IMG/VR virus record: IMGVR_UViG_3300005613_000113
Location: 1-46,924 of that record
Length of the DNA stretch: 46,924 bases
Direction: 5' to 3' (one strand)
From: a virus
Shown: piece after piece, positions 7,290 to 38,727 of the stretch
How positions within the stretch are numbered: the first letter of the stretch is position 1
Layout: the number at the start of each line of letters is the position of its first letter
The notes under the pieces: model-generated
Databases searched by the model: none
Told to the model about the DNA's origin: nothing
Seen by the model: only the letters and a program-made list of their open reading frames with translations
Program-made: the position numbers and the translations under genes

Positions 7290-8948
7290 GGGTTTTTAAT
7301 TGCATTATTAGAAAATTTTTCTTTAGATAGGATTGACGTTACATCTAATAATTGTAATTTTATGGAAGGTGTTAAAGGCGCGTTTGGTTCTCCGGGAGGA
7401 AAATTCTTTGTTGCTGGAAAATTAATAGCAATGTTTCCCGAACATAAAAGATATGTTGAATCATTTATTGGCGGTGGATCAGTATTGTTCAGAAAGAAAA
7501 AAGGAGAAGAAGAATATATAAATGATAAAGATAGTGAAATTGCTACTTGTTTTAAATTTATGCAGAATTTAACAGATCAGCAGTTAGAAGCATTGAATAA
7601 ATTTGATTGGAAAACATCTAAGGTTACTTTTGGGAAATTGTTATCTGAATGGAAAGAAAATAATACTCATAAGGATCCGGCTTATCAATTTTATCGCTAT
7701 GTTTATGTTAAAGCAGCTTCAGATGCAGGTGAGATGCGTTCTTATGATGACCGGGCCGAAGGCGATGTTATGAAAGTAACTTCGCGGTTAATGAAGATAA
7801 AAGAACGATTGCAAGGGGTAACCATTGAAAACATGGATTATAGAGAATTTATAAAAAAATATTCTAATGCAGAATCTTTTACATTCATGGATCCACCTTA
7901 TCCTTCTGCAAAGATGAATTGGAAGTGGTGTCCAACACAAGAAGAATTTGAATCATTTACAAAAACAGTTCCGGGTAAGTGGATGATAACTTATGAAGTT
8001 TGTGATGGTTGGAAAGAAGCAAAATATACTCGTAAAATACTTTCTCAATATAATCTTGCCGCACCGAGTTCTGGACACATGACTAGAAAATCAGAATTGT
8101 TAGTTGTTAATTATTCAATCAAACAAAATAATTCTTATTTGGAATCTGATTTTGATATAGATTTGATGAAAGAATCTATTGAGTTTCTTAGCGTTAATGA
8201 CCTTTCTAGAATATATGAATCATCTGATATTTTAGAAAAAGAGCTTAAAGAAATACTTAAATTATATGCCTCTAAACGCAGAGGTGATGAAGTGAAAAAA
8301 ACTTTTGAACAGTTAAAAAGCTCATTTCGTAATTGTGTATCAAAAATAATAGAATCAAAAAACACTAATTTTCACCCGGAAAAATTATCTCCGTTTGCAT
8401 TGGAATTATTTGATAGATATACTGAATATAATTACACAACAATTAATGCTGATGGGAGTAAACAATCGTTTAATACGTTGAAAGAATTAAAAGAAAGCAA
8501 CATTGATTATAATGAATATGAATTTAACATTAAAATGAAAGAAGCAGAAAAGAAAATAGGTAATTTTACATTTTACAACCAATGGTGGAGAGGAAAAAAA
8601 GACAGGATAGATAATTTTGTTGTTTCTACTGATTTAGGTATGGATATTTATCTTAATGAAAGTTTAATCAGTGAAGATTTTAAAGAATCAACATTTTATA
8701 TTAAACCTTCAAAATACATTATCAATAAATTTTCAGAAGGAATAACATTCATTTCACCAGATAGTGAATTGAATGTCACTGATATGCTTTCTTGGGTAAA
8801 AGTATTAGATAAAGGAAACATATCTATCCTTGAAAGTACAGAATTAGAAAAAACAATAGAATTTTCTGGGGGAATTTTAAAAGGTATATATATTTCAAGA
8901 CGTAATGACGAAAGCAATGATTTCTGGACATTAAATAAAAAAAATTAA
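7278..8948 (+). CDS. DNA N6-adenine methyltransferase (D12/Dam class) with large unknown C-terminal domain
   Basis: 557 residues from ATG 7278, which follows AAAGGAGAT; earlier in-frame ATGs lie inside the portal gene. Residues 30-285 show the D12 class: FGSPGGKFFVAGKL (motif X region), ESFIGGGSVLF (AdoMet motif I) and FMDPPYPS (catalytic DPPY, near 204). Residues about 290-557 are an unrecognised domain, rich in charged helices and then strands, not part of usual Dam enzymes. It lies between portal and prohead genes, an unusual place for a methylase. It could protect phage DNA or mark it for packaging. The methylase call is strong; the fusion role is unknown. Confidence 0.88.
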   Translation: MKNKGFLIALLENFSLDRIDVTSNNCNFMEGVKGAFGSPGGKFFVAGKLIAMFPEHKRYVESFIGGGSVLFRKKKGEEEYINDKDSEIATCFKFMQNLTDQQLEALNKFDWKTSKVTFGKLLSEWKENNTHKDPAYQFYRYVYVKAASDAGEMRSYDDRAEGDVMKVTSRLMKIKERLQGVTIENMDYREFIKKYSNAESFTFMDPPYPSAKMNWKWCPTQEEFESFTKTVPGKWMITYEVCDGWKEAKYTRKILSQYNLAAPSSGHMTRKSELLVVNYSIKQNNSYLESDFDIDLMKESIEFLSVNDLSRIYESSDILEKELKEILKLYASKRRGDEVKKTFEQLKSSFRNCVSKIIESKNTNFHPEKLSPFALELFDRYTEYNYTTINADGSKQSFNTLKELKESNIDYNEYEFNIKMKEAEKKIGNFTFYNQWWRGKKDRIDNFVVSTDLGMDIYLNESLISEDFKESTFYIKPSKYIINKFSEGITFISPDSELNVTDMLSWVKVLDKGNISILESTELEKTIEFSGGILKGIYISRRNDESNDFWTLNKKN

Positions 8949-9520
8949 TTAATCTTTTTATTTAGTAGTCCTCTTAAATGTAATGAATAAGTTTTCCACA
9001 TAGTTAGTTTTAGAAGTTTAGATATTTGATGTAATGTATAACCATATTGTCTTTTGAATTTAGAACTTGTAAATCTATGATAGAGTTTTTTATGACAAGA
9101 TAAACATAGTACTTTTAAATTGTCTAAATTATGATTTGTTTTAGAGAAGTCTTTATGATGTATTTGAAATTTAACATTTGATTTTCCGCATTCTTCACAT
9201 TTATTATTTTGTTTGAGTTTAATTAATCTATTTTTTTTATATTCTCCTTTATTTTTATATAAAGAGATACCTCCTCGCCAATTTGAATTATATTTTCCTT
9301 TGCGACAGTCTATAGTTAATTCCATTGGTTTATTTTTTTTAAATCTATCTAAATGCCTATGACATAATGTCGATTCTCCCCAAATCATCTTATTACAATT
9401 AGATACCTTGCATTTTCTTTTTTTGTAGCCACCTCTTAGAATAATAGCATAATAGTGTTTTAAACAGTACCCTTTTGCGTAATAATTACTTTTACATTTT
9501 GGAAATAAACACTTTTTCAT
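8945..9520 (-). CDS. HNH homing endonuclease
   Basis: 191 residues on the strand opposite to the surrounding late genes. The N-terminal part has paired Cys/His elements (CLFPKCKS, CLKHYY, CKVSNCNK, CHRHL), then a GKYNSNWRGGISLY segment typical of phage HNH enzymes. The HNH core is CEECGKSNVKFQIHHKD, then NLDNLKVLCLSCHKKLYH. Its tail overlaps the end of the methylase gene by four bases. Base composition is even more AT-rich than its neighbours. It is probably a free-standing mobile endonuclease inserted between the portal/methylase and capsid genes. Confidence 0.88.
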   Translation of the reverse strand: MKKCLFPKCKSNYYAKGYCLKHYYAIILRGGYKKRKCKVSNCNKMIWGESTLCHRHLDRFKKNKPMELTIDCRKGKYNSNWRGGISLYKNKGEYKKNRLIKLKQNNKCEECGKSNVKFQIHHKDFSKTNHNLDNLKVLCLSCHKKLYHRFTSSKFKRQYGYTLHQISKLLKLTMWKTYSLHLRGLLNKKIN

Positions 9521-31441: not shown

Positions 31442-34081
31442 CTATTTTTCACTAAATAAATCATTTTGGATTCCTTTATTATCCTCTACAACTTCTACAA
31501 TTTCATCATCAATTAATCCTTCCGGTGCGTCAGCAATTTCAGGATTTACTATCGATCCGGTAATGGCATTATAAAAAGTATCTTTATCACAGGGATACTT
31601 ACTATATATGTCTTCTATTTTAGGTAAAAATCCTAATGTCGAACTTGACCATTCTAACCCGCGTCTTGATATTCTAAATACTGATGCTTTTCCTCTGCCA
31701 CCGGATCCTTTTTCAGCATACTCAATAAGGTTTGCTTTCATTAAAACATACATCCATTTTTTTACTTTATCTACTTTCCAGTCAATATACTCTGATACAT
31801 CTTTATATTTAAACGTAAATTCAGTATCAAAATCACATCCTTCTGGCTGCCATTTATCACTCATTGTTTTTACTGCTTTCCATAATTGCTCTGCTGATGG
31901 GCCTATTTCATAAATGGTATATGTCAAAATGGATTCTGCTACGGTTTTTGCAACAAAATAATCAGCTAATGTTGACATTAAATATATTGTTCCGTCATCT
32001 TGCTTTTTTTGTTCTCTATGGAATTGGTGTAGTATTGTAACTATTTCAATCAACACTCTAAATCTTTCTCTATCTCTTCTTATTCTTACCGGCTTATCAG
32101 GGAACACAGAAAATACTTCTATGGCATAAGGTATGATTACTTTAAAGTCCGGATTAAGTAATCGCTGTATATTTTTCCATAAGTTAAGTTCTTTTTCATC
32201 TATTTTAAATGTTTCTCCCATTGCTTTACGAACTGTTATATCTCCTATCGCTTGTGTTAATTGTGGAGAATCATCACTAAACACAGAAAAGTTTCTAGTT
32301 TCATTCTCATCAAACATTTGTGCTTTAGTAGTTGTGATAAGAAATCCCACAGGGCCTTTTACTCGTTTTGTTACAGTTTCCATTTGCCCTGAATGTTGAT
32401 CTTTAATCGGCATCATTAATATTAAATCTCCTTCCGATTGAGCAGTACGTATAGAATAATCTGCTGATTCAGATCCAGGCAATTCATTGATATAAATAAT
32501 CCTGTTTTGCATTCCGTCTTCAGGTAAATGATAAAAAGCATTTTGTGTCGCTCTGGTTATAAAGTGATAACCTTCTTCCGGTATCAACCGCTGGACACAT
32601 TGGCAAGAAAAAGATTTTCCACTTGAAGCTTCTCCTTTTACTGTTATCGACAATGGTTCTTTTGTAATTCTTGAAGTATAGCAAAGATAAACCATTAATC
32701 TTAATATTTCTTCACCAACAACACCCATTCTATTTGTTAAAGAAATAATATTATGTAATATACTTTTATTCTCAGTAAGATATTTTATCGCTTCATTTTT
32801 CTCACCTTCAGTCATAATATATAGTTGTTTTGGTGCAGTTAATCTATCATGTTCTTCTTTTTCTAATTGTTTCTTAATTAAATCTTCTAATTTAATTAAA
32901 TCAGAATCAATTTCCGGGTCTTGTGATGATTTTACAAATCTTGCCCTATTGGAAGCCATACTTAATTTGATAGAATCTTTAAATATTATTTTTCCTGATT
33001 TAGATAGTGTCAGTGATACTTTAAAATTGCCTGATCTCATGAATTCAAAATTTGCTAATCTGAATTCATAATCTTTCTTTCTAAACACCATGATTTCCTT
33101 ATCCCTAAAAATCATTGTAATAACACCTTGTTCTATTTGTTCCTTTCGCATTTGTGAACTTGTAAGCGGACAAATATCTTTATTACAATAATTTTGAATT
33201 ATAGCGTCATCACAACCATAGCTTTTATAACCGCCTTTGAATACAGAATTTATTATTTTAGTTAATGATCTCTCTGGTAACGGAACTTCATTCTTTGAAT
33301 TCCAACTATTTATTAACATTGCAATATCTGATTGCTGCATGCCTTTTTCTTTATAATTTATAACCAATCTAAAACACGCATTATCGCGATGGCCTTTAGG
33401 AACTCCTTCTTTTATTTTTGCTATACAAGGAAGTTCTTTTGTCGGTGTATACTGTGAAGTATCAATACCTGTATCTTGCATTGATACTTTTTTTCTACTT
33501 AAACCTTTTCCAATTATAGGTATTTCAATAAGTGTAACATCTGACTTTTTAATTTTAGAAAGGTCTTTTATATTATCAATAAAATGTTTATTATCATCAT
33601 CAACAAATATTGTCCGACCGTTTCCTACATCACCTCCGAACAAAGGTAAATTAATGTAGTTTCCATAAGGGTGAGAATCACAAATATTATCTTGCTTAGG
33701 GAAAATTTCACAAATAATACCCATGTCATTTAATATATTCTCAAATACTAACCTTGGTTTAACTGCTTCTATTGGTTTATTAAAAAAACACCAGATATGG
33801 TATCCTTTGCTTTTACTTCGCTCTATATAAATATTTAATCTTAGTTCGTCTAGTTTTTCTTTGATTGATAATGCTTTTTCAAAATTGTCCTCATCTAAAT
33901 CTATTGCTATCCATTTAACAATTTCTTTGTCATATATAGGATAAATACCCATTCGTTGTATTCCGTCTATATGCTTTTGGTATATTTCTTCTGTTATTTT
34001 TTGTTTTAAACAAAAGTTATTTAATCCATAAGCATTATCACGTCCAGAAAATAGTTCAGAAAATCTTTTAATATCACTCAT
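31442..34081 (-). CDS. Primase-helicase (AEP/TOTE-type primase fused to D5-like helicase)
   Basis: 879 residues. The N-terminal part starts RFSELFSGRDNAYGL, which fits TOTE-type archaeo-eukaryotic primases, with WIAIDLDEDN (catalytic acids) and KSKGYHIWCFF. A middle part holds a Cys cluster (SYGCDDAIIQNYCNKDICPL). The helicase part has Walker A GEASSGKSFSCQ near residue 480, Walker B RIIYINELPG near 530, and a C-terminal winged-helix-like region (FKYKDVSEYIDWKVDKVKKW). It would unwind origin DNA and lay down primers. It lies at the promoter-distal end of the operon. Confidence 0.85.
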   Translation of the reverse strand: MSDIKRFSELFSGRDNAYGLNNFCLKQKITEEIYQKHIDGIQRMGIYPIYDKEIVKWIAIDLDEDNFEKALSIKEKLDELRLNIYIERSKSKGYHIWCFFNKPIEAVKPRLVFENILNDMGIICEIFPKQDNICDSHPYGNYINLPLFGGDVGNGRTIFVDDDNKHFIDNIKDLSKIKKSDVTLIEIPIIGKGLSRKKVSMQDTGIDTSQYTPTKELPCIAKIKEGVPKGHRDNACFRLVINYKEKGMQQSDIAMLINSWNSKNEVPLPERSLTKIINSVFKGGYKSYGCDDAIIQNYCNKDICPLTSSQMRKEQIEQGVITMIFRDKEIMVFRKKDYEFRLANFEFMRSGNFKVSLTLSKSGKIIFKDSIKLSMASNRARFVKSSQDPEIDSDLIKLEDLIKKQLEKEEHDRLTAPKQLYIMTEGEKNEAIKYLTENKSILHNIISLTNRMGVVGEEILRLMVYLCYTSRITKEPLSITVKGEASSGKSFSCQCVQRLIPEEGYHFITRATQNAFYHLPEDGMQNRIIYINELPGSESADYSIRTAQSEGDLILMMPIKDQHSGQMETVTKRVKGPVGFLITTTKAQMFDENETRNFSVFSDDSPQLTQAIGDITVRKAMGETFKIDEKELNLWKNIQRLLNPDFKVIIPYAIEVFSVFPDKPVRIRRDRERFRVLIEIVTILHQFHREQKKQDDGTIYLMSTLADYFVAKTVAESILTYTIYEIGPSAEQLWKAVKTMSDKWQPEGCDFDTEFTFKYKDVSEYIDWKVDKVKKWMYVLMKANLIEYAEKGSGGRGKASVFRISRRGLEWSSSTLGFLPKIEDIYSKYPCDKDTFYNAITGSIVNPEIADAPEGLIDDEIVEVVEDNKGIQNDLFSEK

Positions 34082-36247: not shown

Positions 36248-36407
36248 TTTTAACTCCTTTCTCATTATCATTTAAAAATTTTTGCATAGCTTCTCGTAAA
36301 TAATGAATAAATTTATTGTGGCAATCATTACAAAGCCCATAAATGGTTAAAGGCATTTTTAAAGATGACTCATCTATTCCGCATTTTCTACATTTATGAT
36401 TGCTCAT
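36237..36407 (-). CDS. Zinc-finger microprotein, 56 aa
   Basis: Begins MSNHKCRKCGIDESS, with a second pair CNDCHNKFIHY; the two CxxC pairs are 17 residues apart. It overlaps the nuclease start and the SNF2 C-half stop by a few bases, and AAAGGAGGAAAA stands before its ATG. Found by reading the gap. Likely DNA- or protein-binding cofactor of the nearby helicase or nuclease. Confidence 0.6.
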   Translation of the reverse strand: MSNHKCRKCGIDESSLKMPLTIYGLCNDCHNKFIHYLREAMQKFLNDNEKGVKNGK

Positions 36408-37216
36408 TTTCCTCCTTTAAGCATATTCAAACAAGCCTCTGATAAATTTTGTTTTGTTTTTAATGCTTTATATATTACTTCGTCAATCGAATTTTTAGCG
36501 AGCAACTGAAAGTATGTTGTATTACTTTTCTGGCCGATTCTATGGCATCTATCGCATGCTTGGACATATTCTTCATAACTATAAGATAATGAATACCAAA
36601 TAGAATAACTGCACATCTGTAAATTCAATCCATGCCCCCCCGATTTTGGGTGAGCAATAAGAAATCTTTTCTTTCCTAATTGAAAGTCTTTAATATTTTT
36701 TTCTTTTTCCTTCTGTGGTATAGTGCCATTTAATAATACAGCGTCATCTCCTAGCTTTAGCTTTAGCTCTGCTGATTCCCAATGATATTGAATCCAAATT
36801 ATTATTTGTTTATCGAAAGGTATTTCATTTATTACTTCTAACAAAACTTTAATCTTTGAATCGCTTACTTTTACAGGAAGTCCATCTGTGTTGATTACGA
36901 AGCCTCCTGTAATTTCTCTAAGTTTACAAATCTTTGATAATTCATTGGCAGCTAACGTTGTTGAGTCTTTAAATATTAAAATATTTTCTTTCTTCATTAT
37001 CTCATAAGCTTTCTCTTGTACTGAATCCATATAGACTAATCTTGTTTCGAATATTTGCTCAGGTAAATATAAAGCATCTTCTTTTTGTAATGAAAACGCT
37101 TGGCGTGATATTCTATCCATAATAGCTTCTTTTGCCCCATTCATAGGTTTGTATTGATACCCTCCATACCCGGTAGAATAAAAAAAGCTATTACGATATT
37201 TATAGAAATTGCTCAT
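36404..37216 (-). CDS. SNF2-family helicase, C-terminal half (split gene)
   Basis: 270 residues. It begins SNFYKYRNSFFYSTG, which is the normal continuation of the half encoded at 37775. It contains helicase motifs IV-VI: DKQIIIWIQYHWESAELKLK, FLIAHPKSGGHGLNLQMCS and QACDRCHRIGQKSNTTYFQL (motif VI with its arginine). The start overlaps the HNH gene by 17 bases and uses AAGGAAAA from the HNH 3' end as ribosome site. The two halves probably assemble into one DNA translocase. Confidence 0.85.
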   Translation of the reverse strand: MSNFYKYRNSFFYSTGYGGYQYKPMNGAKEAIMDRISRQAFSLQKEDALYLPEQIFETRLVYMDSVQEKAYEIMKKENILIFKDSTTLAANELSKICKLREITGGFVINTDGLPVKVSDSKIKVLLEVINEIPFDKQIIIWIQYHWESAELKLKLGDDAVLLNGTIPQKEKEKNIKDFQLGKKRFLIAHPKSGGHGLNLQMCSYSIWYSLSYSYEEYVQACDRCHRIGQKSNTTYFQLLAKNSIDEVIYKALKTKQNLSEACLNMLKGGK

Positions 37217-37772
37217 TTAAATTTTCCTTCCATTTAGGTTTAATATATTTCTGTGCTATTTTTTTCCATTCTTTTGCTGAAAAAAAGTTATTTTTTAAAA
37301 GATTGCAGAGAGGACAAGCAAAACATATATTATTTAAATCATACCCTTTGTTGTTATTCATTCTATCAATAGTAAATCTTTTAGTATTTTTTACTTTTCT
37401 TACAAAATCGATATTTAGATCTTCTAATTCGCAATAATAACATTTGTGTTTTTGATTTTTAAACCATTCATAAAAATCTTTTTTAGTAATAGTCAAAGAT
37501 AAATTTGAATTTGAAGAGCGATCTTTTATTGCTTTATAAGCACTGACCCATGGATGTTTTTCTTTATATATTTTATTGTATTCGTATATATGGTTTTTAC
37601 ATCTTAAGTAACTTTGGTGTTTTAATTCTTTGTATTTTTTTGTTTTTCTTTTTGTTTTAATCTTATCTTTATTTTTAGAATAATATTTTTTCCAAGAAGT
37701 TTTTATTTTTTCTTTATTTTTTAAACGATATTTTTTTGCTGCTAAAAGTCTTTTTTCTTTGTTTTTATACAT
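37200..37772 (-). CDS. HNH homing endonuclease inserted in SNF2 helicase gene
   Basis: 190 residues. The N-terminal 75 residues are a Lys-rich linker with repeated KNKEKIKTSWKKYYSKNKDK-type segments (DNA-binding). The HNH core is CYYCELEDLNIDFVRK, then FTIDRMNNNKGYDLNNICFA and CPLCNLLKNNF. It sits exactly between the two halves of the SNF2 gene, two bases after the first stop and overlapping the second start by 17 bases. It is not an intein (stop codons) and no intron-sized RNA flanks it. Confidence 0.88.
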   Translation of the reverse strand: MYKNKEKRLLAAKKYRLKNKEKIKTSWKKYYSKNKDKIKTKRKTKKYKELKHQSYLRCKNHIYEYNKIYKEKHPWVSAYKAIKDRSSNSNLSLTITKKDFYEWFKNQKHKCYYCELEDLNIDFVRKVKNTKRFTIDRMNNNKGYDLNNICFACPLCNLLKNNFFSAKEWKKIAQKYIKPKWKENLNEQFL

Positions 37773-37774
37773 AT

Positions 37775-38578
37775 TTATCCCAACAATGTATCGTTAATGA
37801 ATTCTATTTGAGCCCAGAATTCCAACAAATTATTTGGCGCTGGTATGCCACTCAGTATAATACGATGTTTAATGCTATTTTTATATTTCAGTATCACTTT
37901 TGTAATTTCTGAGTTAGGATTTTTCATTTTGCTGGATTCATCAACAATAAAACAGCTGATTTTTTCTTCTATCGGTATTTTAGACATTTTAACTAATTTT
38001 TTAAATCCTTCAAAGTTGACAACATATACATCATAGTTATTGTTCCATTCTTTATAATTATTCCAAAGGACAACAGACCGAAGATTACTCCATTTATTTA
38101 TTTCAGATATCCAAACACTTTCTAAAGTAGATAATGGCGCGATAATGATTGCCGGAAGTTTCCAATACTCTAATAGTTTTATAGCAGTTAAAGTTTTTCC
38201 TAACCCGGGATCCATAAACAAAGCGTAGCTGTCAAACATAGTTGATAAGAGTATAGCTTTCTTTTGATGTTCATAGCACATCGAGATATCAACATCTTTC
38301 AATTCATTTATTAAACAACTAGATGATTTTATTTTGTTTGCGAGGTTTACTCTTTCGTGATATTTCTGCCGTTCATTGCGTAATCGTTCATAAACAATTT
38401 TAGTATCTAAATTATATTGCACATTTAGATTGTCTATAATATCAATTAATTTACGGATAGGAAATACCCAAGAAGATGTAGATTTATTAAATTTATAATC
38501 GCCGATTGCTTTAACTAATTCTTTTTCTTCATATCGGCATTTTACGATTGCCAAATCGTTTTCAGTCCAGACTTGCAT
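37775..38578 (-). CDS. SNF2-family helicase, N-terminal half (split gene)
   Basis: 267 residues after AAAGGAGA. It has a HARP-like or small N-terminal part, then YEHQKKAILLSTMFDSYALF, Walker A DPGLGKT (near 123), APLSTLESVW, FIVDESSKMKN (DEAH-like box, motif II) and LSGIPAPNNLLEFWAQIEF (motif III). It ends INDTLLG and then a stop. In intact SNF2 helicases the same point leads into the sequence that opens the ORF at 37216. Gives the ATPase half of the split enzyme. Confidence 0.85.
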   Translation of the reverse strand: MQVWTENDLAIVKCRYEEKELVKAIGDYKFNKSTSSWVFPIRKLIDIIDNLNVQYNLDTKIVYERLRNERQKYHERVNLANKIKSSSCLINELKDVDISMCYEHQKKAILLSTMFDSYALFMDPGLGKTLTAIKLLEYWKLPAIIIAPLSTLESVWISEINKWSNLRSVVLWNNYKEWNNNYDVYVVNFEGFKKLVKMSKIPIEEKISCFIVDESSKMKNPNSEITKVILKYKNSIKHRIILSGIPAPNNLLEFWAQIEFINDTLLG

Positions 38579-38600: not shown

Positions 38601-38727
38601 TATACCGTTATAAGCATTAATGGAAAAAATGATTTTCAACATATTATATCATTGAAAACACATTATAACATTGACGTTTTTTGTGTCAAGTGCTTTTTTT
38701 CATAATACTTATAACGGTATAACGGTT
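38601..38727 (-). promoter_or_regulatory. Operator-like repeats flanking the replication promoter
   Basis: TATACCGTTATAAG at 38601 (downstream of the promoter) and TAACGGTATAACGGTT at 38712-38727 (upstream) share the element seen twice at 31216-31414. A TTTTCAA/TTGAAAA palindrome lies between. Sites on either side of the promoter suit repression, possibly by looping, by the RHH protein encoded next door. Confidence 0.6.
38662..38689 (-). promoter_or_regulatory. Strong sigma-70 promoter of replication operon
   Basis: On the minus strand TTGACA (38689-38684) and TATAAT (38667-38662) are both perfect and 16 bases apart. The start point would be about 80 bases before the SNF2 N-half ATG at 38578. 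Confidence 0.88.

Follow-up and report, generated by a model that had tools for sequence, protein, structure and literature searches.

How should a conserved helicase gene be read when it lies in two open reading frames with an endonuclease gene between them, and can its two products still work as one enzyme? The locus that raises this question belongs to the window, by which we mean the whole stretch of 46,924 bases that was analysed, an uncultured virus record. Terminase, portal, head protease and tail genes are found on the plus strand, and a replication module of ParB-like, RNase H-like, SNF2 helicase, Pam3 gp34-like and AEP-type primase genes occupies the minus strand. When 12 kb of the window were compared with cultured phages by megablast, no match was returned. 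The primase gene (31442-34081, minus strand) is of the AEP-TOTE type with a PriCT_1 domain, and 6 of the eight related phage records contain homologues of it; the homologues in L096 and L097 each have one TAA within the match.

We consider it likely that a free-standing HNH endonuclease of the homing type split the SNF2 gene, and that its two products are synthesized as separate chains which reassemble, where the reassembly and the homing are the steps that we infer. The features of the locus are summarized in Table 1.

Table 1. Coordinates in the window of the split SNF2 gene, the inserted gene and the candidate expression signals.
Feature	Position	Strand	Basis
SNF2-N: N-terminal part of SNF2-type helicase/ATPase, motifs I, II and III	37775..38578	-	Pfam SNF2-rel_dom 3.4e-23; PHROG 62 positions 698-869; Shine-Dalgarno
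Free-standing HNH endonuclease gene, 190 aa	37200..37772	-	PHROG 1035 and 3118; PacI match; GC 0.215
SNF2-C: rest of SNF2_N region, Helicase_C lobe, motifs V and VI	36404..37216	-	Pfam Helicase_C 2.5e-15; PHROG 62 positions 871-1138
Segment absent from the intact gene: from TAA stop to new ATG, 564 nt, in frame	37214..37777	-	LLG|SNF junction alignment
Candidate sigma-70-type promoter, TTGACA-16-TATAAT, TG before second hexamer	38662..38689	-	12/12 consensus matches; consensus match only
Predicted ribosome-binding site AAGGA of SNF2-C, in HNH coding sequence	37225..37229	-	8 nt from ATG; RNA predicted open

The SNF2 gene in the window and in its relatives

The three genes follow one another head to tail in the order SNF2-N, HNH and SNF2-C. 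Two bases (37774-37773) separate SNF2-N from the HNH gene, which overlaps SNF2-C by 17 bases (37216-37200), and so the arrangement described by the sequence-only reading, an SNF2 gene split by an HNH gene with this gap and this overlap, was reproduced to the base. SNF2-N encodes 267 aa ending in ...INDTLLG*, and SNF2-C encodes 270 aa beginning with MSNFYKYRNSFF. Together the two proteins carry SNF2_N, Helicase_C and motifs I-VI, the composition of the SNF2 helicase/ATPase family distributed over two chains. From Table 1 it can be seen that their matches to the profile of PHROG family 62 (DNA helicase) are contiguous, and therefore the split is not due to chance. The hits of defence-system models (ZorD, DpdE, DrmD) to the two halves reflect no more than generic SNF2 helicase similarity, and no defence role is proposed. 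The break lies after motif III, within the SNF2_N domain at about position 181 of 290 of the Pfam model, and not in the linker that joins the two RecA lobes. Since a domain is cut and not a domain linker, reassembly is less trivial.

Relatives were sought in viral contigs with SNF2-C; peptide patterns from SNF2-N had given no match there. Profiles of both halves were then applied to all loci collected, and it was found that both halves belong to one open reading frame in 80 of the 80 judgeable loci, one further locus being cut by its contig end, so that the split is seen only in the window. Intact relatives had been proposed as a check on the reading, and the closest of them (L002-L012, all viral contigs) are 75% identical in the N half and 90% in the C half. 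The 8798-base SNF2 region of L002-L012 is letter-identical in ten virus contigs that stem from different metagenome samples. Further closer relatives, also from viral contigs, are L014, L019, L020, L013, L021, L015 and L022. In Thermoanaerobacterium phage THSA-485A, with 26-32% identity, the matches of the two halves abut at bases 37283/37282 within one annotated SNF2 gene. Co-conversion, suggested by the higher identity of SNF2-C than of SNF2-N to L002, was dropped as an idea, because the halves differ in rate in other pairs too.

The junction was aligned for the window and 58 distinct intact proteins. The break falls between two adjacent residues and, setting aside the stop and start codons that are new, nothing is lost or gained: the window has INDTLLG|SNFYKYRN, compared with INDSLLG|SNFYKFRN in L020 and VNDRLLG|SNFYAFRN in L022, and the junction in the intact relatives reads INDSLLGSNFYKFRN or VNDRLLGSNFYAFRN. 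The expectation that the halves would rejoin to a normal uninterrupted SNF2 sequence is thus borne out residue by residue, and the alignment indicates that the insertion made two cistrons of one conserved SNF2 gene and removed no residue. The same exactness bears on whether the split is an assembly chimera in a metagenomic contig. In favour of a chimera, the record comes from an uncultured virus and the split turned up in no second copy; against it, both sides of the junction are residue-exact, a new ribosome site is present, and the order ParB-like, RNase H-like, SNF2, primase is common to the window and the phage of L002; we regard the chance of a chimera as minimal.

A different HNH gene (Pfam HNH 4.5e-5) is found at 2606-3007 of L015, 168 bases upstream of an intact SNF2 gene. 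Therefore the SNF2 locus may be attractive to such genes.

Identity and probable mobility of the inserted gene

The HNH protein matches phage families of HNH endonucleases and endonuclease VII (PHROG 1035, 3.7e-12; PHROG 3118, 1.9e-9), while its score against the Pfam HNH model PF01844 is below the cut-off. Among solved structures it matches PacI with an E-value of 1.5e-7, the aligned elements being CxxC, IDR, N and CxxCN, and the PacI-like motif CxxC...DR...N...CxxCN extends over residues 111-157. PacI holds a single metal by Asp and Asn, with a tyrosine as the likely base (PMC4081073). The predicted CxxC zinc pairs and Asp/Asn metal ligands accordingly assign the window protein, at the level of sequence, to the HNH endonuclease superfamily as a PacI-like member. 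It shares the motif CxxC...DR...GY..N...CxxCN with PacI and PacI-like phage HNH proteins (PMC4081073, PMC12724721), but differs from them in its Lys/Asn-rich N-terminal extension, which is basic, and in the position of its gene inside another gene. A single-sequence AlphaFold2 model of the protein reached a pLDDT of 48 and was set aside. Two 38-base direct repeats, 82% identical and spaced 45 bases from start to start (37654-37736), encode part of the Lys/Asn-rich N-terminus.

The motif is common to small free-standing HNH genes of other phages and plasmids. Close relatives were not found by tblastn in the viral contigs and the one-genome-per-species contigs, and a distant alignment gave four HNH loci with 29-34% identity in the core only. 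The gene appears foreign to the phage, because its GC content is 21.5% compared with 30-31.5% in the neighbours and because no HNH homologue was found in eight related phage records, in a search that had no positive control. A second HNH endonuclease gene (PHROG 1271, 3e-10) is present in the packaging region of the window at 8945-9520, on the minus strand, which there is the opposite strand, directly after a methyltransferase-like open reading frame.

If the insert were a self-splicing intron or another spliced element, with the HNH frame overlapping its core, the SNF2 message would be restored by splicing. Such an element would suit an insert of 564 nt that is in frame and whose ends are exact with respect to the family alignment; group I introns also often carry HNH endonucleases, and Rfam can match phage introns poorly. 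The tests nevertheless point the other way. Rfam gave no intron match around the insert at E<=5, though in a control on a T4 stretch the nrdB group I intron was recovered at 2.2e-6; the td intron, which is truncated where the stretch ends, went unreported, which marks the sensitivity of Rfam as imperfect. The insert RNA folds slightly more weakly than the mean of its shuffles (z +1.1), and neither Rfam nor folding revealed the conserved core RNA of a group I or II intron. The HNH frame takes up the whole insert but for 2 bases and, checked by hand, a frame-keeping junction of the group I type (insert preceded by U and ending in G) removes at least 2 residues. We therefore consider a spliced element very unlikely, in agreement with the earlier claim that there is no intron, and an intein, which had likewise been excluded, is ruled out by the stop codons. 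What is left has two properties of a free-standing homing endonuclease gene: it lies outside any intron or intein, and its occurrence is sporadic, being absent from the relatives' intact alleles.

Expression and condition of the two halves

The comparison with intact relatives shows that a PacI-like free-standing HNH gene entered the SNF2 helicase gene residue-exactly after INDTLLG. The three genes would be transcribed jointly, probably from the sigma-70 consensus located 84 bases upstream of the SNF2-N start region, which is likely to drive all three. SNF2-N has a Shine-Dalgarno sequence, AGGAG, 9 nt from its ATG; its translation would begin from this site of its own and end at the new TAA. 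No Shine-Dalgarno sequence can be recognised in front of the HNH gene. It starts 2 bases past the SNF2-N stop, which suggests translation by termination-reinitiation, probably at a low level. The start codon of T4 mobE overlaps a stop codon, and reinitiation was proposed there too (PMC2988022). SNF2-C would start from the AAGGA within the last HNH codons, in line with the sequence-only reading, which had the HNH gene supply this site. When the 307 ATGs of the region were scored with one 5-mer test, only 29 had a site of this sort. Judging by precedent, spread of the HNH gene most likely depends on its enzyme, which would cut or nick the intact SNF2 copies of co-infecting phages.

The condition of the halves decides how much weight should be given to another explanation, namely that a recent HNH insertion broke the gene, that SNF2 function was lost or is covered by another enzyme, and that the halves are decaying. 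The split is known from one genome only, as would suit decay, but neither half has a frameshift or a premature stop, all helicase motifs are kept, and SNF2-C has a ribosome site such as few ATGs of the region possess. Evolution is not accelerated either: dN/dS against L002 is about 0.09 in the N half and 0.04 in the C half, with dS near saturation, and relative-rate tests with three outgroups (24 vs 30, 34 vs 26 and 34 vs 26) give no excess on the window branch. Among the columns conserved at 90% or more, 34 of 37 are kept in the window, and two of the three changes also occur in the intact L002. The third, D316Y in SNF2-C (numbering of the joined protein), is confined to the window; the other aligned sequences that have a residue at this site, 57 in number, all show Asp. 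The site lies outside the helicase motifs. Hence the earlier supposition that the halves carry no inactivating mutation is upheld insofar as no obvious one was found and the motifs are intact, and is weakened by D316Y at an otherwise invariant site. We judge decay to be unlikely.

A structural model of the intact L002 protein (pLDDT 89) matches SNF2-type remodellers in the PDB with a best E-value of 4.6e-24. In this model the break, at residues 267/268, falls in a loop (263-269) between the helices 251-262 and 270-277. The motifs, the unaccelerated evolution and the predicted loop position of the break fit two pieces that still assemble, and the SNF2 pieces most likely associate non-covalently into a working motor. 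Identical values would be expected for a split that is very recent, as a result of the purifying selection that preceded it.

We give roughly even chances to a more specific form of this explanation, in which the SNF2 motor would be an obligate non-covalent pair, cut in its first domain after motif III, and the HNH gene would hold the start signal for translating the second piece, which would tie retention of the HNH gene to expression of the motor. The insert would be hard to lose, because the ribosome site in front of SNF2-C lies within it and a sloppy loss would silence SNF2-C.

Comparison with known split genes

A search of openly available papers gave no HNH-split SNF2 gene in phages. This kind of split is already known, and an SNF2 motor as its victim is, to our knowledge, new. 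A SNF2-type DNA motor is thereby added to a short list of ribonucleotide reductase, topoisomerase and DNA polymerase, and if the pieces assemble they would provide a natural two-chain SNF2 ATPase for probing the need of covalent continuity in such motors.

The phage genes known to be split by endonuclease genes are nrdA of Aeh1 (mobE), the T4 topoisomerase gene (mobA) and perhaps gene 43 of Aeromonas phage 25, and in the split genes that were studied the pieces form active enzymes (PMC2988022). When compared with nrdA/mobE of Aeromonas phage Aeh1, the window likewise has a free-standing HNH gene in a conserved phage gene, which would give two polypeptides with no splicing (PMC2988022). The parallel drawn earlier with phage nrdA split by a homing endonuclease holds in that one gene became two cistrons with no residue loss, as judged from the 80 intact loci and the junction alignment. 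The Aeh1 target is ribonucleotide reductase, whereas that of the window is SNF2, and the split nrdA product is fully functional (PMC2988022). The ribosome site of mobE is sequestered by an RNA hairpin in Aeh1, whereas in the window no such site is recognisable in front of the HNH gene (PMC2988022).

In the T4 topoisomerase large-subunit gene, as in the window, an HNH gene (mobA) made two cistrons of one large DNA-enzyme gene, and in T4 the split products assemble (PMC2988022). The two cases differ in the enzyme, in the 23-base overlap of mobA with its upstream gene, and in the HNH protein, which is of another, PacI-like type in the window (PMC2988022). The DNA polymerase of Aeromonas phage 25 (43A/43B with seg43) is similarly a replication gene split together with an endonuclease gene, and its halves co-purify and are active (PMC2988022). 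However, that endonuclease is segD-like, the seg genes being GIY-YIG, and it may have entered a gene that was already split (PMC2988022).
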